From Alkaliphilus pronyensis (GTDB lineage: Bacteria > Bacillota > Clostridia > Peptostreptococcales > Natronincolaceae): 64,000 bases of DNA. The stretch covers positions 1 through 64,000 of the forward strand of contig NZ_WBZC01000025.1 in the NCBI RefSeq assembly GCF_009017275.1, written 5' to 3'. Of the stretch, positions 32,926-60,061 are shown piece by piece. A program made the position numbers and the translations under genes. The first letter of the stretch is position 1. Every line of letters begins with the position of its first letter. Under the pieces are notes generated by a model that worked only from the letters and a program-made list of their open reading frames with translations, ran no database searches and was not told where the DNA came from.

Positions 32926-34431
32926 ATGTCAAAGAATAGCTTAGTAAAATACGATTTTACAAAGGTTAGCAGATTTAATGTAATATTAATACTTATTTTT
33001 TCATCGTTATTGATAGCTCAAGGCTACTTTGTTGGAGGTATCCCTCATGCCATAAAGGTGGCAACAGCAACCCTATCAACCACTTTTATTGCCTTTATTA
33101 TGTTTTTGTTAATCAGAAGGCAGCTAATAAACATTACTATAGGTGGTATAATAATATGCTTTGCACCTATAGTATCTGCATTGTCTTTATTATATTTCAA
33201 TGAAGGCTCAATAGCCAAAAGTGTATTTTTAGTTTTTTGTATAGCTATATGTCAAGTAGCTTTATATTTTAGAAGCAAAATGATTTTATACTATGCTATT
33301 ATTTTTAACCTGACTATTTCCCTTTATTACTACAGATTTCCAGATATTTTAATGGGTGGTAGCAACCATTCCATTAGGGATTTAATTACAAGAATGATTA
33401 TACTGAACTGTATGTTTTTAGTTCTTTATTTCCTTGCTAAATGGGGTAATGAATACATAGCAACTGCTGTAGAAAAGGAGAAACAAGGCAGTGAACTGCT
33501 GGAAAAGCTAAATAATACAATGGAAAAGCTTAAGGGGGGAATTGTGATACTTAATGGAAGTATTACAAAGTCTAGTGAAGGTATAGAGGATATCAAAGAG
33601 GCTAGTGGTAACATTACAGTATCAATAAATGAGATTTCTAAGGGAGTTGAAGAGGAGGCTTCAGAGGTGTATAGCATTTCCAATTCAATGAACAGTGCAA
33701 CTGTATCAATAGCTGAGGTAAAGCAGCTATCTAAGGATATCAAGTCAATTTCTGATACTATAATTAATATAGTTTCACAAAACTCAGACGAAATAAACAA
33801 AATGAATGATCAAATGAATACAATTAGAAGCTCAGTTAGCTCCTCCCTTTCAACAGTAATTGAGTTACAGGATAACATGAATAATATTAATTCCTTCCTA
33901 ACAGGAATTACTGATATAGCTGAGCAAACAAACCTCTTGGCCTTAAATGCTGCAATTGAAGCAGCAAGGGCAGGTGAGGCCGGTAAGGGCTTTGCTGTAG
34001 TAGCTGATGAGGTTAGAAAGCTTGCAGAGCAGAGCAGCAAGACTGCAAATGAAATATATGACATTATTTTAAAAACTCAAGAGAAGACAAAAACTGCCCT
34101 AGAGAGGGCTCAAGAGGGTAATAGAGCTGTTGAAATTGGCACCGGGGTAGTAAAGGAGGTACACCAGGGCTTCGAAACCATCAAGAACTCATTTAACTCA
34201 ATGGGTAAAAAAATTGAGAATGAGGACAGTATGATAGAGGAGATTACTGATACCTTTGCCATGGTACAGGAAAAGCTTGAATCCATTGCAGCTATATCAG
34301 AAGAGCATGCGGCTGCTTCAGAAGAAATATTAGCATCAATTGAAAATGAAAACAGTAGAATAATTGATCTTGCTGAAGAAACGAAAACCATTAGAAACCT
34401 CAGCAATGATTTAGAAAATTTATGTAAATAA
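32926..34431 (+). CDS. Methyl-accepting chemotaxis protein with a multi-helix membrane part
   Basis: The 501-residue receptor has about six hydrophobic helices in residues 17-180 and no extracytoplasmic sensor domain or clear HAMP. The cytoplasmic signalling domain spans about 195-500. The conserved hairpin tip '[20 protein letters not shown]' is at about residues 330-349. The membrane part may itself sense membrane or energy state (inference). A good ribosome-binding site (aggaggt) precedes the ATG. It is a single gene followed by a terminator. Confidence 0.92.
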
Positions 34432-47883: not shown

Positions 47884-49407
47884 TTATTCACTTATTGCCT
47901 CTCTAACCCTTTCTAACAGCTCTTGAGATTTAATTATGTTGTAAGCCTTTTTAATATCAATTGATAGGTTTCTGTCTTTATCTAAAAATGGTATCTCTTC
48001 TCTTATAACCTCATAGGCAGCCTTTGTACCTTTCCCCAGCTTAGTTGCCTTTCTTAAATCTATAGCTTGAGCTGCGTGCATAGCCTCTATACCTAAGATA
48101 TAGCGTAGATTATCTACAATTTTACTTGTTTTCTTAACTACATAGGGTGTATTATTTGCATGATCCTCTATATCTCCTGCAAGTGAAAAATAATCGGCTG
48201 TAGCAGGATTTGATAAATGCCTTATTTCAGTATCTAATGAGGTGAAGGTTTTTTGTATTGTACCATAGGCAATTACTCGAGCATCTGATGGAGTTAAGAA
48301 CCGAGACAGACCCGTAAATCTTGCATTACCCAGCTTAATAGTTCTATGACATGAGTTTCTTGAAAGATGACTTAGTGCTATTCCTATCATCTCAAAGCCT
48401 AAAGCTAAGCTTGTAACCTCATAATTGGAGCAGGATATTATCCTCTTTTCATCTAATAAAACACAGGGATTATCGTCTGAGGAGTTTAGTTGTATATTCA
48501 TATATTTTTTAACATAATCTAATGCATCCCTCACCGACCCATGTAAATGACATGAACCCCTTAAACACAGCGGATCCTGTAGGGAGTCAGTTACCCCTGG
48601 TAGCCACAAATAGCTCCCCTCTAAATAAGCTCTAACCATTTGAGAGCTATAGGCTTGCCCTGGTAATGGTCTTACTTCATAGGCTTTAGGGTCTAAAGGT
48701 GTAACGTTTCCTCTATAGCCTTCTAGGGTAAGGGCATATATTATATCAGCAGTTTCTATTAAGTCTTGAATATCCTTTAAGACTAATGCACCGGGCCCTG
48801 CAGCTAAAGCATTAGAGGAAACTATTGCTAAGCCATCCTTCGGCCCCAAAACTATTGGTTTTAAACTAGCCCTTTCTAATGCTTCTTTTGCTGTCATTCT
48901 TATACCATTATAGTGTACTTCCCCTTCCCCTATCATTGCTAAGCCTATATGGGAAAGACATGCTATATCTCCTTCTCCGATTGATCCTCTTTCGGGTATT
49001 ACTGGGTGTATTCTATAATTAAGCATATCCTTATACATAGTTACTATTGCCGGTTGAATTCCAGTACAGCCTAGAAGTAATGTATTTAGCCTTGCTAGCA
49101 AGATTGCCCTTACATCCTCCTCACTTGCCTCTGGCTCTACTGCTACACAGTGGGCGTATATTAAATTTCTATTATATTCCTCATAGTATTTAGCGACAAC
49201 TTCTCTATCCTTGTTTAGTCCTACTCCCCTATTAAATCCATATACAGGTGTATCACTATTAGCAAGCTCATAAACCAGTGCTCTGGAGGCCTCCACAGTT
49301 CTCATAGCTTCCTCTGTTATCTCTACCAAAGCCCCATTCCTAGCTACATTATTAACATCCTGTATAGATAGAGTTTTTCCATTAAGTATAACCTTTGACC
49401 CTTTCAT
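47884..49407 (-). CDS. Histidine-ammonia-lyase homologue lacking the MIO triad
   Basis: The 507-residue protein aligns throughout with the HAL/PAL family ('VYGFNRGVGLNKDREVV', 'NSSDDNPCVL', 'LQDPLCLRG'). In true HAL the motif GSVGASGDLAPLAH supplies Ala-Ser-Gly for the MIO electrophile. Here that site (about residues 140-153) reads GSIGEGDIACLSH: one residue shorter, with no Ala-Ser-Gly. The active-site Tyr of QDPYSLR is Leu. The frame is clean and the length normal, so this is not decay. It follows the molybdenum-hydroxylase large subunit by seven bases and ends at a strong terminator. The product is probably an elimination enzyme of altered chemistry (inference). Confidence 0.85.
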   Translation of the reverse strand: MKGSKVILNGKTLSIQDVNNVARNGALVEITEEAMRTVEASRALVYELANSDTPVYGFNRGVGLNKDREVVAKYYEEYNRNLIYAHCVAVEPEASEEDVRAILLARLNTLLLGCTGIQPAIVTMYKDMLNYRIHPVIPERGSIGEGDIACLSHIGLAMIGEGEVHYNGIRMTAKEALERASLKPIVLGPKDGLAIVSSNALAAGPGALVLKDIQDLIETADIIYALTLEGYRGNVTPLDPKAYEVRPLPGQAYSSQMVRAYLEGSYLWLPGVTDSLQDPLCLRGSCHLHGSVRDALDYVKKYMNIQLNSSDDNPCVLLDEKRIISCSNYEVTSLALGFEMIGIALSHLSRNSCHRTIKLGNARFTGLSRFLTPSDARVIAYGTIQKTFTSLDTEIRHLSNPATADYFSLAGDIEDHANNTPYVVKKTSKIVDNLRYILGIEAMHAAQAIDLRKATKLGKGTKAAYEVIREEIPFLDKDRNLSIDIKKAYNIIKSQELLERVREAISE

Positions 49408-49414
49408 TGGTATG

Positions 49415-51688
49415 CTAACCCCCTATTAGATTTTTCTTATTATTAAGTGCAGCTAATATTTTCTCTGGTGTAGCAGGTAATGAAGTAATGTTAATATCTA
49501 GTGCATGGTTTATTCCATTAATTATTGCTGGTGCTATTGGTACTGTACTGACTTCTCCTACGCTTTTTGCGCCGAATGGTCCAAATTCTTCTCCTGCTTC
49601 AATTAGATGTACCTTTACATCTGGCATATCAGGTGCATTAATTACATGATACTTACTAAAATTATTTGATTTAACATTACCCTTATTATCAATTACTATC
49701 TCCTCTGTTAAGGCAAAGCCAATTCCCATTTGTATTGCACCCTGCACCTGACCTTCTACAAATACAGGATTAATTGCCTTTCCTATATCATGGACTGCTA
49801 CAATGTCTATAACCCTGACTAATCCTGTGTAGGTATCTATTTCCACCTCAGCAAAGTTGACACCATATACAGCTGGATTAGCTGGTGACTTATAGGTATA
49901 TGAAACACTTATGTCCTCCTTTAAGCTGGTTTGAATCAGCATAACCATATCACCATAGGAGACCATGGCTTGGGGATTATTCTTATTTAATATAAATCCA
50001 TCCTTATATAAAATATCATCTATATTGCACTTTAATATATCGGCTGAATGTTTGGTAAACTTTTCCTTCACTAGTTCTGCTGTTTTCTTAGCTGCAGCTC
50101 CACATACAAATGTTACTCTACTGGCTTGAGTACCAGCAGAATCAAAGGGACTTACTAAAGTATCGGCTTCTGGCACCAGAATCTTATCTGGATTAATATC
50201 AAGGACCTCTGCAACAATTTGCTTAATAGTTACAATAGTTCCACAGCCTAAATCATGTAAACTGGCCTTTAATATTGCCTCTCCATCCTCTGTAACTCTT
50301 AAATCCATGGTAATAAAGTCGGGGTAGGCATTGTAGTAACCGCTTCCGTGGGTTGCACAGGCCATTCCAACACCCTTTACAAATCTACCTGTAGCCTTTG
50401 GCCTATTATACTTGCTTTTCCAATCAAAAACCTCCATACCCTTTAGTAGGCAATCTATCACCCTTGCATTGCCTAGTTCTGGTCCCCCCGTTGGATCCTT
50501 TGCATAGGGTTTTACTAAATTTTTTAATCTAAACTCTACTGGATCAAGTCCTAGCTTTTTGGCTGTATTATCTATGTTTATTTCTGTTAAAGCATGTATT
50601 TGTGGTGAGCCATAGCCTCTACAGGCTCCAGCTATTGGTGTATTTGTATATACTGCTGTTCCTTTATATGTTTGGTTCTTTATATCATATAGCCTAAATG
50701 CCTTTTTACCCATTGCTATTGTAACGGCTTCGCCATTGGTAAAGTAAGCACCGGCATCTACCAGTACATCTATATCTCTTGCTAGAATATTTCCTTCTTT
50801 ATCTACAGCTGTTTTTACTCTACCTATGGTTGCATTTCTAGTTCTTGTAGAGGAAATGGTTTCTGCTCTGTCCAGCTGAAGCTTCACTGGTACTCCAAGA
50901 TCGTAGGTGAAGTAGGCGCAAACAGGCTCTAAAATTGGTTGACCCTTTCCTCCAAAGGACCCTCCAACTGTTGTTTTTATTGCCCTTATTCTATTTAGGG
51001 ATAGGCCTAAGGCTTCTGCCACAATTAGTCGAACTTGGAAAACCACCTGACATGGTGTCCATATAGTTAACAGTCCATTAGTTGAGTCGATTGCAGTCAT
51101 ACATATATGGGGCTCCATTGCAGCATGGTGAACCTTTTGAGTATCTACAAAATCCTCAACAACTATGGGGGCATTTTCCATGGCTTCATTTACATTGCCT
51201 ACACTTATTTCCTTCTCCATAATTACATTTCCGTGATCATGTATCTTTATGGTTTCTTCCATTAAAGCCTCTTCTGGATCTAGCACTATAGGTAGCTCTT
51301 GATACTGAACCTCTATTAGCTCTATTGCCTTTTCAGCTATCGATTTGTCCTTTGCAACTACTGCAGCTACCCTATCTCCCACGAATCGAACCTTATCTGT
51401 AAAAAGTCTTTCATCCTTAACCACCTCTAACCCAACGTGCCATTTTTGGGAATTATATAGATTTTGAGGTGTATTTTTATATGTATAAACCTTTACTACT
51501 CCAGGTAATGCTTCTGCCTTTGTAACATCTATACTTTTTATAACTCCATGGGCAATAGGACTTAGTAATAGCTTAGCATGTAGCATACCATCCATCTCCA
51601 TATCAGCAACGTATTGTAGCTTACCCTTAACCTTTTCATAAGCATCATGAATTGGTATATACTTACCTACATACTTTAACTCTGTCAT
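49415..51688 (-). CDS. Molybdenum hydroxylase (xanthine dehydrogenase family), large subunit
   Basis: The 757-residue chain holds the molybdopterin site. The N-terminal domain starts 'YIPIHDAYEKVKGKLQYVAD'. Cofactor and substrate motifs include 'GGSFGGKGQ', 'GACRGYGSPQ' (Arg as in XDH) and 'GPFGAKSVGEVST', whose Glu is the expected catalytic base. These enzymes hydroxylate N-heterocycles or aldehydes with water as the oxygen source; xanthine is only the archetype. Its start overlaps the FAD-subunit stop by four bases (ATGA). Downstream is the HAL-like lyase. Confidence 0.9.
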   Translation of the reverse strand: MTELKYVGKYIPIHDAYEKVKGKLQYVADMEMDGMLHAKLLLSPIAHGVIKSIDVTKAEALPGVVKVYTYKNTPQNLYNSQKWHVGLEVVKDERLFTDKVRFVGDRVAAVVAKDKSIAEKAIELIEVQYQELPIVLDPEEALMEETIKIHDHGNVIMEKEISVGNVNEAMENAPIVVEDFVDTQKVHHAAMEPHICMTAIDSTNGLLTIWTPCQVVFQVRLIVAEALGLSLNRIRAIKTTVGGSFGGKGQPILEPVCAYFTYDLGVPVKLQLDRAETISSTRTRNATIGRVKTAVDKEGNILARDIDVLVDAGAYFTNGEAVTIAMGKKAFRLYDIKNQTYKGTAVYTNTPIAGACRGYGSPQIHALTEINIDNTAKKLGLDPVEFRLKNLVKPYAKDPTGGPELGNARVIDCLLKGMEVFDWKSKYNRPKATGRFVKGVGMACATHGSGYYNAYPDFITMDLRVTEDGEAILKASLHDLGCGTIVTIKQIVAEVLDINPDKILVPEADTLVSPFDSAGTQASRVTFVCGAAAKKTAELVKEKFTKHSADILKCNIDDILYKDGFILNKNNPQAMVSYGDMVMLIQTSLKEDISVSYTYKSPANPAVYGVNFAEVEIDTYTGLVRVIDIVAVHDIGKAINPVFVEGQVQGAIQMGIGFALTEEIVIDNKGNVKSNNFSKYHVINAPDMPDVKVHLIEAGEEFGPFGAKSVGEVSTVPIAPAIINGINHALDINITSLPATPEKILAALNNKKNLIGG

Positions 51689-52566
51689 GATAATTCACCA
51701 CCAGTCATAATTTGTGGAAACATCCTTTTCATAATATCGTCGGCTAAGCCTCTAATAGCTTCTCTTTTATATGGATGGGAGGCCCTTCCCAATATAGCTT
51801 CATCCACCTGTTTTTGAAGTGTTTCTTCAAATAGATATATAAATTGCGTATTAATTTTCTTATTTAGTAATGAATTAGCCACCGTCGATGAATTAAAGGC
51901 CTTTGGTCCAATAGCACCTATGACTACCATTGCTTCATTTATAACCATTTCATGATTATACTTAAATGTCACAGCCATATTTAATTTCGATATTGTTACA
52001 GCTGTTCTACTGCCGATTTTACCAAAGGATGATCTTGCTTCTAAATCTATTGGTATATTAACTTCTATTATTACTTCATCCCTTTTTAATGAGTTTTTCT
52101 CAGAGCCTAACACTATGTCATCTACTTTTTTTTCATAAATTTCGCCACTGCCGTTGATTATTTTAACCTTTGCACTTAAGGCCATTAGAGCTGTTACTGT
52201 ATCTGCACAGGGAGCTGAGTTTGCAATATTTCCTGCAAGTGTTGCCGCATTCCTTATCTGTGTAGAGCCTACTTTTCCAGTGGCCTCCTTTAGTGCAGTA
52301 GCATATTTATCTACGATGGAGCTACAGGATATTTCTGTAAGGGTAGTAATTCCACCAATTTTTACATAATCCTCTGTATTAGTGATGTAGTTTAGCTCCT
52401 TTAGGTCTTTCAAATTAATAATAGTTCCATTATTTATTTTTTCTCTTCTCATTTTAATGATAAAGTCTGTACCACCACTTAACATATATGTGTTATTGTC
52501 GGCTACTGCTAAAATTTGTACCAGTTCCTTTAAGGTGGTTGGACTCTTAATAACAATCTCATTCAT
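51685..52566 (-). CDS. Molybdenum hydroxylase, FAD-binding subunit
   Basis: The 293-residue subunit has the FAD motifs 'YMLSGGTDFIIKMR' (about residue 28) and 'TQIRNAATLAGNIANSAPCAD' split around residue 105, with the usual C-terminal CO-dehydrogenase-type flavoprotein domain. It passes electrons from the iron-sulfur subunit to NAD+ or another acceptor. It lies 25 bases after the [2Fe-2S] subunit and overlaps the large subunit by four bases. Confidence 0.92.
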   Translation of the reverse strand: MNEIVIKSPTTLKELVQILAVADNNTYMLSGGTDFIIKMRREKINNGTIINLKDLKELNYITNTEDYVKIGGITTLTEISCSSIVDKYATALKEATGKVGSTQIRNAATLAGNIANSAPCADTVTALMALSAKVKIINGSGEIYEKKVDDIVLGSEKNSLKRDEVIIEVNIPIDLEARSSFGKIGSRTAVTISKLNMAVTFKYNHEMVINEAMVVIGAIGPKAFNSSTVANSLLNKKINTQFIYLFEETLQKQVDEAILGRASHPYKREAIRGLADDIMKRMFPQIMTGGELS

Positions 52567-52591: not shown

Positions 52592-53050
52592 CTAAATGTC
52601 TTTTACAGCCTCTTTTACTGCTTTTATTATTTTGGTGTAGCCGGTACATCTGCATAAATTACCTTCAATAGCTGTTTTTATTTCCTCTTCTGTAGGAGCT
52701 GGGTTCTTCATTAATAGTGCTTTACAGGACATAAGCATACCTGGAGTGCAATATCCACATTGCACAGCACCATTATTAATAAAGGCCTTTTGTAATCGAT
52801 CCAGCTCCCCATCTTTTTCCAAAGATTCTATGGTTAGAATCTCTCTTCCAGCTGCCTGAGCTGCTAAAACTATACATGAGTTTATTGCTACTCCGTCTAA
52901 TATTATAGTACAGGCACCACATTCTCCTTCTCCGCAGCCTTCCTTGGCACCTGTCAATTTCAGTTTATTCCTTAGGACATCCAATAGTCGCTCCATTGGA
53001 TCCACCTCTAGTATATGCTTTATTCCATTTACATTAAATTCCATTTCCAT
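52592..53050 (-). CDS. Molybdenum hydroxylase, [2Fe-2S] subunit
   Basis: The 152-residue subunit carries two [2Fe-2S] clusters. The plant-type ferredoxin motif is CGEGECGACT plus a later Cys ('AINSCIV'). The second, C-terminal motif is CGYCTPGM ... CRCTGY. This is the full set for the family. A ggagg site lies eight bases before the first ATG. It leads the hydroxylase genes, 85 bases downstream of the chemoreceptor-OpuAC fusion. No terminator was found in that gap, so linked transcription is possible. Confidence 0.95.
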   Translation of the reverse strand: MEMEFNVNGIKHILEVDPMERLLDVLRNKLKLTGAKEGCGEGECGACTIILDGVAINSCIVLAAQAAGREILTIESLEKDGELDRLQKAFINNGAVQCGYCTPGMLMSCKALLMKNPAPTEEEIKTAIEGNLCRCTGYTKIIKAVKEAVKDI

Positions 53051-53135: not shown

Positions 53136-55115
53136 CTATATTTCAACATCTTCGAAGTTTTTCAAATATTCCCTTGCAGCTTCCTTATAGGTTAATCCAT
53201 TATGGACTTTATTTAAAGCTATATTTACATCCCTTACATTTAATCTAAAGCTCTTTATTAGGCTGTATAGTTCAGGGTTAGTATTCCTCAGCCCTTTAGC
53301 CACTAAAGTTGTACAGTATTCCTCTTCTCCAAAAACCATTTTATCATCATCAAGAAATTTCAAATCATATTTCCCAAACATCCAATGGGGCTGCCAGCCT
53401 GTTATAATTACCCATTCTCTCTTTTCAATTTTTTTCTTTAATATTTCCAGCATGGTTTCTTCATCACTATAGTCAACATCTAATCCAGCTAATGAGTATT
53501 GATTTAATACTTCTGATACTAGTCCACCAACAGCTGTTCGTCTTTGAACCGAGTATACTTTACTATTAAATTTTTTTAAGTTATTTTTTATTTCTCTAAT
53601 ACTGTTTATTTCTACATAGGAAGGTACTACAAATCCATACCTACAGCCCTTTAAATTAGCCCCTATTTCTTCTAGCTTAGCTCCATATTTTTTTGAGAAG
53701 CCTTTACAGGAGTAGGGCATCCAAGGAGAAACCGTTGCATCAACCATTCCTTCTGCAACACTACGCCATAGCTCCATACTGGGTACTAAAATCCCCTCGA
53801 GTGCTAAGCCTAGCCTTCGTCCCACTAGCTCCTTTAAAATTTCCATCTGTAATATTGATTCACTATATTCTGTATGGGCCAGCTTAACATATTTAAAGAC
53901 CTTAAGCTCTTTGCTAATATTTCCCACTATATTAATTAACTCACTTACTCTTTCATTAACTAGTGCAATAGCACCAGCTTGCTGTTGGGTGCTTGCACTT
54001 ACCTGCTGTGAGCTGGCAGCAGCCTCCTCAGTGACTGCCGATATATCTGAAACAATACTGTTTACATCCTCACTAAACCTAGTTAAGGTGTTTGTTTTGT
54101 TGTATATGTTATCCATCTGTTTATTAACTGATAGTACAGATGTGTTTATGAGATTAAAGGTTTCTTTTGTATAGCCTAAAGCCCTTCTTTGATCCTCAAC
54201 TACTTCATTACCCTTTGACACCTCTTGTACGATTGATTGTATTTCCTGTTGTATAGCTTCTACCAATTGATTTACCTGCTGTGCATAGTTTTTTGTGTTA
54301 TCTGCCAGCTTTCTAATCTCATCAGCTACAACCGCAAAGCCCTTTCCTGCTTCACCTGCCCGTGCTGCCTCGATAGCAGCATTTAATGCCAACAGATTTG
54401 TTTGCTCCGATACTGCATAAATGGTGTTTACTACAGTGTTTATTTCTAAAGAGGATTCTTCTAATTGGCTTACTCTTCCATTAATGTTCCGAAACATCAT
54501 AACATTATTTGCTATTTTAACATCTTGATCCTCTACTGCAATTTTTCCATTATCTGTTGCTTTTATAGATTCATCCACTAGTCTACGGATATTACCCACA
54601 TCATTATTAATGTCTTTGACTAAGCTATTAGTGTCAAAGGTTTTATTTGATATGTCACTTATCATATCTACTATATGAGCGTTTCCCTTTGCAACCTCCT
54701 CTACAGCAATACTTATTTGTGTTGCTGAGTTTTCTATGGAAAAAATATTATCCTGTACCATTAATCCCGTACATTCTGTTGTTCTAGTTATACCATGTAT
54801 TTTAGCAATAAGACTTCTAATTTTATCAGTTAATGCTATAATATTAGAATTTTGATGGTTACCATCATTACCTATAAGCTGTAGATCATTGTTTACAAGT
54901 TTTTGAATTATTTGTGCATCTTTATTTTTATTGATATTAACAAGTAGCAGTATACATAATATTGATAATCCTTGACTTAGCCCATATATAGACAAAACTT
55001 TAAGGCTAAATTTATCCACTAAAAATCCGTAGCTAATTCCATTAATTAAAAGTAAAAGCGATATTCCTAAAACTATTTTTATATTTTTGTATTTACTAAT
55101 AGTATTTTTTCCCAT
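53136..55115 (-). CDS. Chemoreceptor fused to a C-terminal glycine-betaine-binding (OpuAC-like) domain
   Basis: The 659-residue protein has two membrane helices (about residues 12-33 and 40-58) joined by only a few residues, so there is almost no outside domain. The methyl-accepting signalling region covers about 100-390, with the tip motif '[20 protein letters not shown]' near 232. From about 395 to the end it becomes an OpuAC-like substrate-binding domain: '[19 protein letters not shown]', 'ATVSPWMPY' and '[18 protein letters not shown]', with aromatic residues typical of the betaine cage. This places the ligand domain in the cytoplasm. The BCCT transporter gene is directly upstream. Confidence 0.88.
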
Positions 55116-55203: not shown

Positions 55204-56808
55204 CTAATTAGTTTCAGAAGCTGTTTCTTTAACGATTACTTCTTCGTCTATTTCTGCTGTTTCAGGACAGTTTACAACGTCGTATTTACCTTGTTTAATA
55301 ATCATATACATTGTTGTTCCACTTAATAGTATCATAAAGAATAGTATTGGGAACCCTGCTACAGTTGCAATTTGCTTCGTTGCATCAATACCACTAATTT
55401 CTGTACCTGCACTCAATATGTTTATGATAGCCATAGAGGACATAACTGCTCCCCAGAATAATTTCACCTTTGTAGGTGGCTCTGATCCTTCTGATAGGTT
55501 GGCTGTGGTTGACAAGGATGCAACTGTACTGGTCATTGAATCTGCCAAAGTAACAATTGACACAAATATTGCTAAAATAAATATTGCACTCAACAAGCCC
55601 GACATTGGGAAGTTACTGAGGAAGGCAAACACCGATACCTCTAATCCCGATTGCTGTATGGACTCCCATATACCAGCTCCATTTAACTCAAGGTGAATAG
55701 CTGAGCCTCCAAACACTGAGAACCAAAGTAATCCAAAGGTAGCAGGAACAATAACATTAACAAGCATAAACTGCTTAATGGTACGACCCTTTGAAAGTCT
55801 TGCCAAGAACATTCCTATTAGCGGTGCATATGCCAGCCATATTGCCCAATAGTAAATAGGCCACCATCTTGGCCAAGCTGAACCTTCTATAGGACTTAAG
55901 TAGTGGGTTCTAACAAAGAAGTTTTGAATGAAGTCCCCCACCGATTGGGTTCCAAAGGATAGGATAAACTGAGTAGGACCAACAATAAATATAAATACCA
56001 TCATGGCTAAAAACAGCTTTGAATTTTTATCTGATAGCCAACGAATTCCTTTATTTAATCCAGTATAACTAGAAATTACATAGGTGATAACTATTGCTAC
56101 AAGAATACCAACCCATAGACCTTTTCCTGCAGTTACACCTGTTAATACATTTAATCCACTACCTATTTGCATAGTTCCAACACCTAAAACTGCTGCAACT
56201 GCACCTGCCATTGCAAATAAGCATACGTTATCAACTATATCTCCAACGTATCCCCTTATTCTTTTTCCAAAGATGGGATAAAGGGTTGAGCTTACTTGAT
56301 ATGGAAGCCTCATGTTATATACTGCATATGCAATACCTATACCTGCAATTCCGTACATAGCATAGGGTATGTAGGTCCAATGGATGAAGGTTGTTGTCAT
56401 AGAAAACATTGCTGCTGCCTCTGACATTGGCTCTAATCCCAATGGGGGTGACATGAAGTGAGTAATAGGCTCTGCAATCCCCCAGAATAAAATACCAGTT
56501 GCAATACCCGCACATAGGGAAATTGCAAACCAGTTCCAGTTGCTTAGCTCTGGCTTTGCATCTTTTCCCCCAAGCTTAATATCTCCATATTTAGAAAACA
56601 TTAAATAAAGACACATCGCAAGGAAGATATTACCTGAAATTTGGAACAGCCAACCAAAGTTTACAAATGCAAATTCAACTATAGCATTCATACCCTGTAA
56701 AAATTTTGCCGGTGCCACTAATCCTACAATAATTGCTGAAAGAAAGATAAATGACATTGGTACAAAAATTGCCATTCTTAACTTAGCGTTACCATTTGTA
56801 GCTTTCAT
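55204..56808 (-). CDS. BCCT-family betaine/carnitine/choline transporter
   Basis: The 534-residue protein has about twelve hydrophobic helices. The family signature in helix 8 is visible ('RWWPIYYWAIWLAYAPLIG' then 'MFLARLSKGRTIKQF'), along with 'FIHWTYIPYAMYG' in the helix that forms the aromatic box. These carriers take up quaternary ammonium compounds with Na+ or H+ or by exchange. I used the ATG at 56808, seven bases after gggagg; a start at 56823 would overlap that site. The C-terminal tail is short and acidic, without the long osmosensing extension of BetP, suggesting a nutritional role. Confidence 0.92.
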   Translation of the reverse strand: MKATNGNAKLRMAIFVPMSFIFLSAIIVGLVAPAKFLQGMNAIVEFAFVNFGWLFQISGNIFLAMCLYLMFSKYGDIKLGGKDAKPELSNWNWFAISLCAGIATGILFWGIAEPITHFMSPPLGLEPMSEAAAMFSMTTTFIHWTYIPYAMYGIAGIGIAYAVYNMRLPYQVSSTLYPIFGKRIRGYVGDIVDNVCLFAMAGAVAAVLGVGTMQIGSGLNVLTGVTAGKGLWVGILVAIVITYVISSYTGLNKGIRWLSDKNSKLFLAMMVFIFIVGPTQFILSFGTQSVGDFIQNFFVRTHYLSPIEGSAWPRWWPIYYWAIWLAYAPLIGMFLARLSKGRTIKQFMLVNVIVPATFGLLWFSVFGGSAIHLELNGAGIWESIQQSGLEVSVFAFLSNFPMSGLLSAIFILAIFVSIVTLADSMTSTVASLSTTANLSEGSEPPTKVKLFWGAVMSSMAIINILSAGTEISGIDATKQIATVAGFPILFFMILLSGTTMYMIIKQGKYDVVNCPETAEIDEEVIVKETASETN

Positions 56809-56971
56809 TTTATTCCCTCCCAATCCAATTTTAAAACTAAAAATCTGAAAACCCTATCAATAATTAATTGTAGCTGAAATTTGTTTGTGTTACAAACGTT
56901 TTCATATTTGTGAATTTTCAAAATTTATTAGTTTGTATATATATTAACAGCATACCGTCCATAAAAAGTCG

Positions 56972-57013: not shown

Positions 57014-60000
57014 TTACTGCTTCTTTAGCTGATTTAAAAGGTTTACCTCATAGTATCCCCTTAGTTCTTTTAATATAGCTATACCTTCATTACAATAATG
57101 CTCATGGCTTTTTTCTATATAGGGAGCAAATATCCCCCTTAGTGCTTTGTTTTTGTCCATTTCCTTAGCTATCTCCCCCTTCACCCTAAGAACCAATGCA
57201 ATTTCATAGGGGCTTTTTAGTTTTTGGGAGTCGGCCTCTGCCTTCATTAAGGATTTTAACCCCTCTTCATACCTTTCCTCTTTAATTAATAGCAATGCTA
57301 AATGACCATATGCCATTGATCTTCCCCATAGATAGTCTATCTCTTTATATATTTTTAGTGCCCTATTGAAATATAGCTTTGCATTCACATAGTCTTTATC
57401 TGCGTAGCATGCCAAGCCAGCATTAGTATGAAAAATAGCTAAGCCCCTTAAAATCTTCTTATCATTACATATTGAAATAGCCCTCTTGTAATAATCAATT
57501 GCCTCTTTAAAATTTTGACTGTGTCTTTTACTTTCCCCAATGTAATTATATATTGCAGCAATATGAAGCAAGTATTTTTCTGGATATGGCAGGGTGTTAA
57601 ATATGTTTATGGATTCCTTTAGTATTGCTTCTCCCTCACTGTAAAGCCCCTGCATAATTTTTAAAGCACCCTTTAATCTATATAGTATAGCAGTTTCTTC
57701 TTTTTCGTCGCTTTCCTTTGCAATTAATAATGCATTTTCTATTAGCTCCTCCATTAGCACTATGTTTTGTGTGTTAATACAGTAATATATCATTTGTCTA
57801 TAGCCCTTAAGTGCTAATGCATATTCTTTAGATTCTATTGATCTACTAATGACCTTTTTTATATTTTTAATACCTTCATCGTAGTCACCTTGTATTATCA
57901 AAAATCTACCCGTCATTAAAAAGTAGGTTATTTGTATTTTGCTTACTTCCTCACCATATCCATTTATTACTATTACTTTGTCTATCAGCTGATGTATTTC
58001 CTTTAGCTTTTTTTTCACCTGTTCTTTACTTAAGTATAATAAGTCCTCAATTTTTCCGCTCATGGTGTTTATTACAGGGAATATTTCATGATTAAAGTCA
58101 AGATATTCTTCTAAATTTTTTATGTTGTATTTCAGAGCGGCTATCCAATTGCCACCATTATAGAAGTGATGGATTAGCTTTGAATATAAGAAAATATCTC
58201 TTTTATCTTTTTTTAGTTTCCCTTCTAGTAAATTTCCTATTTTTTGATGAAGTAGCTTTCTTCTTGATAGGGATAGTTGCATATATAGATATTCCCTAAG
58301 CTTTTGATGAGTGAAGGCTAATTCAACGTCTTGTGAGCCCTTTGACTCCTTTAGAATGTTTTTATTCTTTAACTCATCAATAATATCGATTATTTCTAAA
58401 TCATTTTTACCGCTTAATTTTTGTAGGTCTTCCAACTGAACACTGTCGAAATACACTGAGATAATATTTAATAGTTTTTTTGCTTCTTCAGAGATATTGA
58501 CAAACCTGCCTTTAAGAATGTCCTCCATATTGGAGGTTATATGTGTACTTTTATTGTTTTTTAGGTTATTAAGAAACTCCATTAGAAAAAAAGCATTACC
58601 TTCAGTTTCTGAGTATATTGTCTCCTGAAGTCCCCTATTGAACTGATAGTTAGGCAAAAGCTTCTTTGCAAACTCTATTGTTTCTTGCTTTTTAAAGCGT
58701 TCAATCATTAATTTCTTTAGTAAATTATGTCTGCCTAGCTGCAACATAAATGCCTCTGTATCTTTTCTGTGCTCGTTGCGGCTCGTTGCAAGTACAAGTA
58801 TAGTATTGTTTTTGTTTTTAAATATAAGATTTTTTAATAGGGTTATTGTCATTGTATCTGCCCATTGTATATCTTCGAAAACCAAAAACAGCTTTTTATC
58901 CTTAGAAACCCTTTCTAATATTTCAATTAGTGCATTCTCCAGAACTTGACACTTTAAATTATATAAATCTTCTTCAATATTAATAGAGCTATCGGTTGTA
59001 TAGCTTGAAAATGAGGGAAATATATGTCCAACTATCTTATTTAATCCCTTAGAAATAGGTATACTTTCTTCTTTAATTATAGCTGCTATTTGAGAAAAAA
59101 TTTCATTCCATGGCTTTAGAAAATAGTTTTCTTCTGCTTGGTAGCAATTTACAGTCATAAAGATGTTTTTGTTATCATTTTTGGTCTTTATAAAATATTC
59201 TAATAATTTGCTTTTACCGATTCCTGCTTCTCCAATTAATAACATCGATTGTGCTTCTCCATTTGAAATAAAGCTTTCATAATTTTCCTCTAAAAACAGA
59301 AGCTCTCTATTTCTACCATAGAAGAATTCGTCCTCTTTTTTGTTTATTGCCTCCCTTTGGAGCTTTTCTTTAATAATTGCATCATATACTTCAGTAGTTT
59401 TTTTATCCGGTGTAATCGATAACTCTTTTTTCAACAATTTAAGCAGCCTATTATATATATCAATTCCTTGATTAAACTTTCCCTGAGCTCTATAGGTCTT
59501 CATTAGCCTTCTATATGCTCTTTCATCAAACTCATCAATACTTATTAGTTGCTTGCAATATTCCTCTGTTTTATTAAAATTATTATTTTTAAAGGCTTTT
59601 TCAATTTCTAAATATATTTTATTTATATATATGTCTTTATGTTTGTCCCTTAAGGTGTACATCCACTCTTCAAATGCCTCTGCGTCTTTAATTAGGAAGC
59701 CCTCAAGTAGCTCTCCAGTATAATTAAACAGTGAATTGTCATCCTTGTGCCAGTTAAATTCATCAACGTCAATTTTAAATTGTATATCTGGATTAAGTGT
59801 TATAATTGATCTTTGTGGGGATATCAAAACATCCTCATTAAATATTTTTCTTATCATATATACAGCATTTCTCAAGTTTTTCTTTGCAATCTCTTCAGAA
59901 ACATCTCCCCAAAATAGATTAACTAAGGTTTCTCTCGAAGCACGTTTTTCTAATAATAGATAATAAAAAAGTGCCTCTGCTTTTTTATATGGGAAAATAA

Positions 60001-60061
60001 TATCTTCATCATTTTTCAATACCCTTGGATTTCCAAACAGCTTGGCAGTTATTAGAATCAC
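57014..60061 (-). CDS. Large BTAD / ATPase / TPR transcriptional regulator
   Basis: The 1015-residue protein has the build of SARP/MalT-like activators. Residues 1-95 form a winged-helix-like DNA-binding part ('KAEALFYYLLLEKRASRETL'), and about 95-245 the bacterial transcriptional activation domain with TPR-like helices. An NTPase follows (Walker A GEAGIGKSKLLEYF, about residue 277; 'LFLVFEDIQWAD' as Walker B). The last 350 residues contain TPR repeats ('AIYNYIGESKRHSQNFKEA', 'FHTNAGLACYADKDYVNAK'). The start is GTG after aaggggtg. It lies 205 bases upstream of the BCCT gene on the same strand and is a good candidate regulator of that cluster (inference). Confidence 0.88.
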   Translation of the reverse strand: MILITAKLFGNPRVLKNDEDIIFPYKKAEALFYYLLLEKRASRETLVNLFWGDVSEEIAKKNLRNAVYMIRKIFNEDVLISPQRSIITLNPDIQFKIDVDEFNWHKDDNSLFNYTGELLEGFLIKDAEAFEEWMYTLRDKHKDIYINKIYLEIEKAFKNNNFNKTEEYCKQLISIDEFDERAYRRLMKTYRAQGKFNQGIDIYNRLLKLLKKELSITPDKKTTEVYDAIIKEKLQREAINKKEDEFFYGRNRELLFLEENYESFISNGEAQSMLLIGEAGIGKSKLLEYFIKTKNDNKNIFMTVNCYQAEENYFLKPWNEIFSQIAAIIKEESIPISKGLNKIVGHIFPSFSSYTTDSSINIEEDLYNLKCQVLENALIEILERVSKDKKLFLVFEDIQWADTMTITLLKNLIFKNKNNTILVLATSRNEHRKDTEAFMLQLGRHNLLKKLMIERFKKQETIEFAKKLLPNYQFNRGLQETIYSETEGNAFFLMEFLNNLKNNKSTHITSNMEDILKGRFVNISEEAKKLLNIISVYFDSVQLEDLQKLSGKNDLEIIDIIDELKNKNILKESKGSQDVELAFTHQKLREYLYMQLSLSRRKLLHQKIGNLLEGKLKKDKRDIFLYSKLIHHFYNGGNWIAALKYNIKNLEEYLDFNHEIFPVINTMSGKIEDLLYLSKEQVKKKLKEIHQLIDKVIVINGYGEEVSKIQITYFLMTGRFLIIQGDYDEGIKNIKKVISRSIESKEYALALKGYRQMIYYCINTQNIVLMEELIENALLIAKESDEKEETAILYRLKGALKIMQGLYSEGEAILKESINIFNTLPYPEKYLLHIAAIYNYIGESKRHSQNFKEAIDYYKRAISICNDKKILRGLAIFHTNAGLACYADKDYVNAKLYFNRALKIYKEIDYLWGRSMAYGHLALLLIKEERYEEGLKSLMKAEADSQKLKSPYEIALVLRVKGEIAKEMDKNKALRGIFAPYIEKSHEHYCNEGIAILKELRGYYEVNLLNQLKKQ

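Follow-up and report, generated by a model that had tools for sequence, protein, structure and literature searches.

Solute-binding domains normally occur outside the cell. A chemoreceptor gene of Alkaliphilus pronyensis, found in the 64,000-nucleotide stretch of DNA analyzed here (the window), carries such a domain behind its signaling hairpin, raising the questions of which side of the membrane the domain occupies, what it binds, and what the receptor would report to the cell.

Architecture of the receptor

The initial annotation described a protein in which membrane helices, signaling hairpin and OpuAC-like domain follow one another in the reverse of the usual order. The features concerned are:

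53136..55115, minus strand: MCP-OpuAC chemoreceptor, 659 aa, with ten more clade members known
54936..55076, minus strand: two N-terminal transmembrane helices, at about residues 14-34 and 40-60, separated by a short loop (hydropathy)
53904..54857, minus strand: MCP signaling hairpin, residues 87-404 (Pfam MCPsignal; long helices in AlphaFold)
53151..53903, minus strand: C-terminal OpuAC-type domain, residues 405-655, joined straight onto the end of the hairpin (Pfam, AlphaFold)

The open reading frame starts with ATG and contains no internal stop. Pfam places MCPsignal (PF00015) at residues 208-362 (E 1.6e-36, 126.2 bits against a cut-off of 34.6) and OpuAC (PF04069) at residues 410-653 (E 1.9e-41, 142.8 bits against a cut-off of 21.2), and the presence of the signaling hairpin with its conserved tip makes the protein a member of the MCP family. 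Hydropathy reveals hydrophobic windows at residues 6-38 and 38-62 and nothing membrane-like beyond residue 100; AlphaFold models the N-terminal helices at 3-36 and 40-58, with low confidence in that region. In the full-length model the two long helices of the hairpin span residues 87-252 and 254-404 and lead straight into the OpuAC domain, but at a pTM of 0.54 the placement and angle of that domain relative to the hairpin are not interpreted. Modeled in isolation, the domain has a mean pLDDT of 94.4 and belongs to the OpuAC family by both fold and sequence, matching Lactococcus lactis OpuAC (3l6g) with a Z score of 32.2 and 32% identity. Its GWQPHWMF motif occupies residues 573-580.

The reversed order of helices, hairpin and OpuAC is thus confirmed by Pfam and hydropathy on one intact reading frame. 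Chance or a frame error fusing two genes can be ruled out, since the same domain order and a near-equal length are found in ten other genes of the clade, all from other genomes. The window also contains a second MCP gene (32926-34431), which has no OpuAC domain.

Relatives of the receptor

The domain search for other MCP-OpuAC proteins that the initial annotation had called for proved productive. Searching 84,980 genomes with exact peptide patterns only gave 141 OpuAC relatives, and nine genes among the best 80 of these 141 are MCP fusions. Four more, L167, L209, L210 and L211, came from samples of the order, class and phylum. All told, the window-type clade has eleven members: the window's receptor and ten others (L044-L051, L167 and L209), L209 being assigned by its pocket signature and absent from the tree. 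Outside the clade lie three further MCP-OpuAC proteins, L053 from the Halanaerobiaceae and L210 and L211 from another class.

In a tree without L209, the ten window-type proteins then known cluster together at 100/100. Three of them, L044 and L046 (both linked to a second lyase, see below) and L049, form a separate branch at 100/97. These receptors branch apart according to the enzyme next door, which indicates that they track the neighboring chemistry. The record title of L048 (JAJGRE010000001), Calditrichales, would suggest transfer across phyla; no such transfer is claimed, as the title may be wrong and a contig of equal length, G445:C7, comes from a genome of the window's class.

Position of the OpuAC domain

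The MCP hairpin acts on CheA and CheW, both of which are cytoplasmic. Because the hairpin stands ahead of the OpuAC domain and no later membrane helix follows, the domain is expected on the same side of the membrane, and two clade members without membrane helices make this almost certain. L051 (616 aa, from the metagenome-assembled genome UBA6806) and L209 (609 aa) have zero membrane helices and retain both the hairpin and the OpuAC domain; a membrane helix encoded in frame just upstream of L051 was looked for and not found. The receptor itself has no signal peptide, so that the extracytoplasmic location typical of glycine betaine-binding OpuAC is lacking. The cytoplasmic domain envisaged by the initial annotation is therefore upheld, by the two-helix topology with both termini inside as well as by the helix-free relatives. 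The same genome encodes CheW domains in three genes, one of them CheA-sized, and two flagellins.

The ligand pocket

The OpuAC domain of L. lactis holds glycine betaine by W330, W377, W484, a histidine, and the backbone of G437/V438 (PMC2861598). The histidine, which binds the carboxylate, is printed as H392 in that paper, but the chain sequence gives 382, five residues after W377. Four pocket features stand out in the receptor:

53865..53867, minus strand: Tyr417, occupying the first cage site, a Trp in OpuAC (W330 in L. lactis OpuA; pocket alignment)
53706..53708, minus strand: Cys470, at the position of the carboxylate-binding His of OpuAC (pocket alignment)
53541..53543, minus strand: Arg525, invariant in the clade, where OpuAC has the GAG loop for binding the carboxylate of glycine betaine (pocket alignment)
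53385..53396, minus strand: W574-Q-P-H577, the retained cage motif (pocket alignment)

In full, W330 corresponds to Y417, W377 to W465, W484 to W574, the His to C470, G437/V438 to A528/V529, and P434 to R525. Where a glycine betaine-binding OpuAC has three Trp, a His and the GAG loop, the receptor has Y-W-W, a Cys and the loop QRRT-A-V with its invariant Arg. The earlier observation that the cage motif GWQPHWMF is kept is correct, but the motif covers only part of the pocket; elsewhere the glycine betaine site is not conserved.

The same holds across the clade. No member has Trp at the first site (0/11) or the His (0/11), while all eleven have an Arg in the GAG loop and Cys491; among plain OpuAC proteins the first-site Trp is found in 60 of 62 and the His in 59 of 63, and the GAG-loop Arg in none. 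The fusions outside the clade resemble the plain proteins, L210 and L211 keeping W, W, H and AGV, and L053 keeping the His and the AGV loop. Since all of these largely retain the original residues, only in the clade linked to catabolic genes has the glycine betaine site been broken up. The most conserved positions of the domain include the pocket-lining R525, W574, P576, H577 and C491. Two members depart from the pattern: L051, whose first cage site is not aromatic, and L049, which lacks the second Trp.

Cys491 (53643-53645) lies on the hinge strand and is absent from plain OpuAC proteins; it is possibly close to a ligand sulfur. In L210 (L210:9776-11761) and L211 (L211:2312-4294), GWIPE replaces GWxPH, and there are no betaine genes nearby. 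In EgtU, too, an Arg binds the carboxylate of ergothioneine (PMC9732360), a parallel with Arg525 that may be taken as analogy only, EgtU being a different branch of the fold.

The operon and its recurrence in other genomes

The receptor gene lies within a run of genes on one strand:

55204..56823, minus strand: BCCT transporter that presumably imports the ligand (Pfam BCCT)
52592..53050, minus strand: Fe-S subunit of a xanthine-dehydrogenase-like molybdenum hydroxylase (profile matches)
51685..52566, minus strand: FAD subunit of this hydroxylase (profile matches)
49415..51688, minus strand: molybdenum-binding subunit of this hydroxylase (profile matches)
47884..49407, minus strand: enzyme resembling ergothionase (ergothioneine trimethylamine-lyase) but lacking the MIO motif of related lyases (homology to 6s7j)
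57014..60061, minus strand: SARP/AfsR-like regulator, BTAD-AAA-TPR (Pfam; conserved in ergothionase clusters)

From BCCT through the receptor and the three hydroxylase genes to the lyase, the gaps are 88, 85, 25, -4 and 7 bases. A promoter scan of the operon yielded sites no more numerous than in shuffled sequence, and the terminator-like sites (10 against 6.0 expected) are not interpreted. The BCCT protein scores 422.5 bits against the 650 of NF047988, below the NCBI cut-off for the glycine betaine equivalog.

The lyase matches ergothionase 6s7j at 549 bits and 52% identity, the next solved relative reaching 240 bits and 31%. It carries GSIGEGDIACLSH where MIO enzymes have G-ASG, without any Ala-Ser-Gly; HutH of the same genome keeps the MIO motif (GSLGASGDLAPLSH). 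Ala-Ser-Gly is likewise absent from nearly all orthologues of the lyase, one of which gave no motif match. Ergothionase has been reported to lack MIO (PMC13405746), and the lyase is a putative ergothionase, its substrate being predicted from homology.

Twenty-five ergothionase loci were viewed. The combination of BCCT, molybdenum enzyme and lyase recurs in almost all of them and the SARP-like regulator in most, although the cluster of G. subterraneus has no BCCT gene nearby. Genes for maturation of the molybdenum cofactor come after the cluster in two genomes (L150 and L153). An intact receptor is present in six of the 25 loci (the window, G084, G121, G178, G401 and G445), and that of G103 has decayed, its GWQPHWMF region being interrupted by a stop in frame. 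The G103 remnant (L153:9992-10326) contains stops and lies between the ergothionase and BCCT genes, at a locus from which the molybdenum enzyme has also been lost. These surveys suggest that ergothionase-like enzymes are commoner in Clostridia than a single-sequence BLAST survey indicated; bacterial breakdown of ergothioneine to trimethylamine is itself under debate (PMC13405746).

Seen from the side of the receptor, genes for quaternary-amine transport or breakdown adjoin ten of the eleven clade members. L044 and L046 each lie beside BCCT, a ferredoxin protein and a lyase of a second MIO-less kind; L049 adjoins BCCT, DUF1638 proteins and a RACo-type corrinoid activator; and L209 adjoins two MttB-family methyltransferases and an MtgC-like corrinoid protein. 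The only exception, L050 (L050:8780-10756), has as neighbors aconitase X, an octopine-dehydrogenase-like gene, a glutamate symporter and a double nitrilase. The link to BCCT pointed out at the start thus extends beyond the adjoining gene of the window to the ergothionase clusters and to L044, L046 and L049. Among the best 80 of the 141 relatives, a lyase neighbor is found at six of nine fusion loci against none of 71 plain OpuAC loci (Fisher p 2.8e-7, a value inflated by shared ancestry, as the six lyase-linked loci represent four genomes).

The second aromatic-lyase family (L038:6632-8182, L042:10198-11805, L151:15036-16586 and a fragment, L036, in the window's own genome) has GSVGYLSPEAH at the MIO position and is found with BCCT and, in complete loci, with a 4Fe-4S protein. 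It scores 526 against an NCBI histidine ammonia-lyase subfamily cut-off of 524, a name that is probably wrong for it; the family is a candidate for a trimethylamine-lyase acting on hercynine or some other betaine.

What the receptor may sense

Ergothioneine is the betaine of trimethyl-thiohistidine, a mushroom-derived antioxidant obtained through the diet. The reading we favor, with rather more confidence than doubt, is that the receptor senses a quaternary-ammonium nutrient after its uptake, most likely ergothioneine in this operon. The BCCT protein would import the compound; the OpuAC domain, fixed on the cytoplasmic side at the membrane-proximal end of the hairpin, would close on it; closure would alter CheA activity through the signaling hairpin; and the neighboring lyase and molybdenum hydroxylase would then degrade the compound. 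The architecture, the gene linkage, the altered pocket and the presence of CheA, CheW and flagellin genes can be read from the sequence; we infer the ligand, its transport by BCCT, the coupling of closure to CheA, whether the response is positive or negative, and what reaction the molybdenum enzyme carries out.

That the ligand is a quaternary amine being catabolized appears quite probable. The choice of ergothioneine for the window's copy, a somewhat better than even call, is favored because the lyase is nearest to a solved ergothionase and lacks MIO, and because the operon of BCCT, molybdenum enzyme and lyase recurs. It is weakened by a fold nearest that of glycine betaine-binding OpuAC (Z 32) rather than EgtU (Z 20-21), by the absence of a receptor from most ergothionase clusters, and by the one cluster, in G. 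subterraneus, without a nearby BCCT gene. Moreover, the pocket signature is also found beside the MttB genes of L209 and at L050, and hence is not specific to ergothioneine but denotes a wider group of ligands. A pocket common to three kinds of neighborhood suggests a shared quaternary-amine site with a variable remainder.

This variation gives some room to another member of the pathway, such as hercynine or thiourocanate, or to a different aromatic betaine: with a second MIO-less lyase beside L044 and L046 and MttB beside L209, ligands would differ within the clade. Such a ligand is nonetheless rather unlikely for the window's receptor, as the retained Trp cage points to a quaternary ammonium group, absent from thiourocanate, and the adjoining enzyme is of the ergothionase type. 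Clearly more doubtful is the idea that the receptor responds, for osmotic or nutritional purposes, to glycine betaine, a common osmolyte, inside the cell. The OpuAC ancestry, the two cage Trp with GWQPHWMF and the BCCT neighbor would all accommodate it, but no clade member keeps the first cage Trp or the carboxylate-binding His, and all have gained an Arg in the GAG loop, at sites where plain OpuAC, L053 and L210/L211 largely keep the glycine betaine residues, and the operon partners are an ergothionase and a molybdenum enzyme. The proposal that the receptor reports the internal betaine level accordingly survives for an internal betaine-type compound; it is not supported for glycine betaine, given only two Trp, the Tyr, Cys and Arg replacements, and a BCCT gene that travels with ergothionase and not with osmolyte genes.

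It is very improbable that the domain binds no small molecule, whether as a structural leftover or as a reporter of BCCT activity by contact. The incomplete cages of L051 and L049 might be read in this way, yet R525, W574, P576, H577 and C491 are among the most conserved residues of the domain, and the soluble relatives away from the membrane (L051 and L209) keep it.

Should the favored reading of a catabolized quaternary amine sensed after uptake be true, the receptor would offer a clean and directly testable case of cells steering by what they take up instead of by the concentration outside, and the first known behavioral response to ergothioneine. Chances are about even that these proteins form a receptor class in which a solute-binding domain has been moved into the cytoplasm and re-tuned to steer by uptake of a catabolized quaternary amine, with the window's member the first ergothioneine chemoreceptor. 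The open-access literature, within which the search was made (subscription papers being outside its scope), holds no earlier report of an MCP-OpuAC receptor or of ergothioneine chemotaxis.

Comparison with known systems

The OpuAC domains of L. lactis (3L6G/3L6H) and B. subtilis share with the receptor their fold, two of the three cage tryptophans and GW-x-PH. The OpuAC of OpuA is tethered to its transporter outside the cell, whereas that of the receptor lies behind a cytoplasmic MCP hairpin and has its carboxylate site and first Trp replaced. EgtU of the EgtUV system is alike in using a type II solute-binding fold for a quaternary amine and an Arg for its carboxylate (PMC9732360). It belongs, however, to the other branch, is extracellular and serves uptake rather than signaling, with about 15% identity and a Z score of 20-21 to the receptor domain; the Tyr/Phe pentagon cage of EgtU is not found in the receptor, whose domain is nearest to the Trp-cage OpuAC branch.

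TlpD, HemAT and McpB (for ethanol) likewise read their signal inside the cell, but with other sensor domains, and we know of no cytoplasmic-sensing chemoreceptor of this type that uses a solute-binding-protein fold. Chemoreceptors that have repurposed a solute-binding domain are already known, and the receptor is a variant of that kind. With chemoreceptors that have extracytoplasmic ligand domains or rely on separate solute-binding proteins it has the MCP hairpin in common, and coupling to CheA and CheW is expected; those receptors meet their ligand outside the cytoplasm, whereas here the solute-binding domain is built in, C-terminal, and inside.
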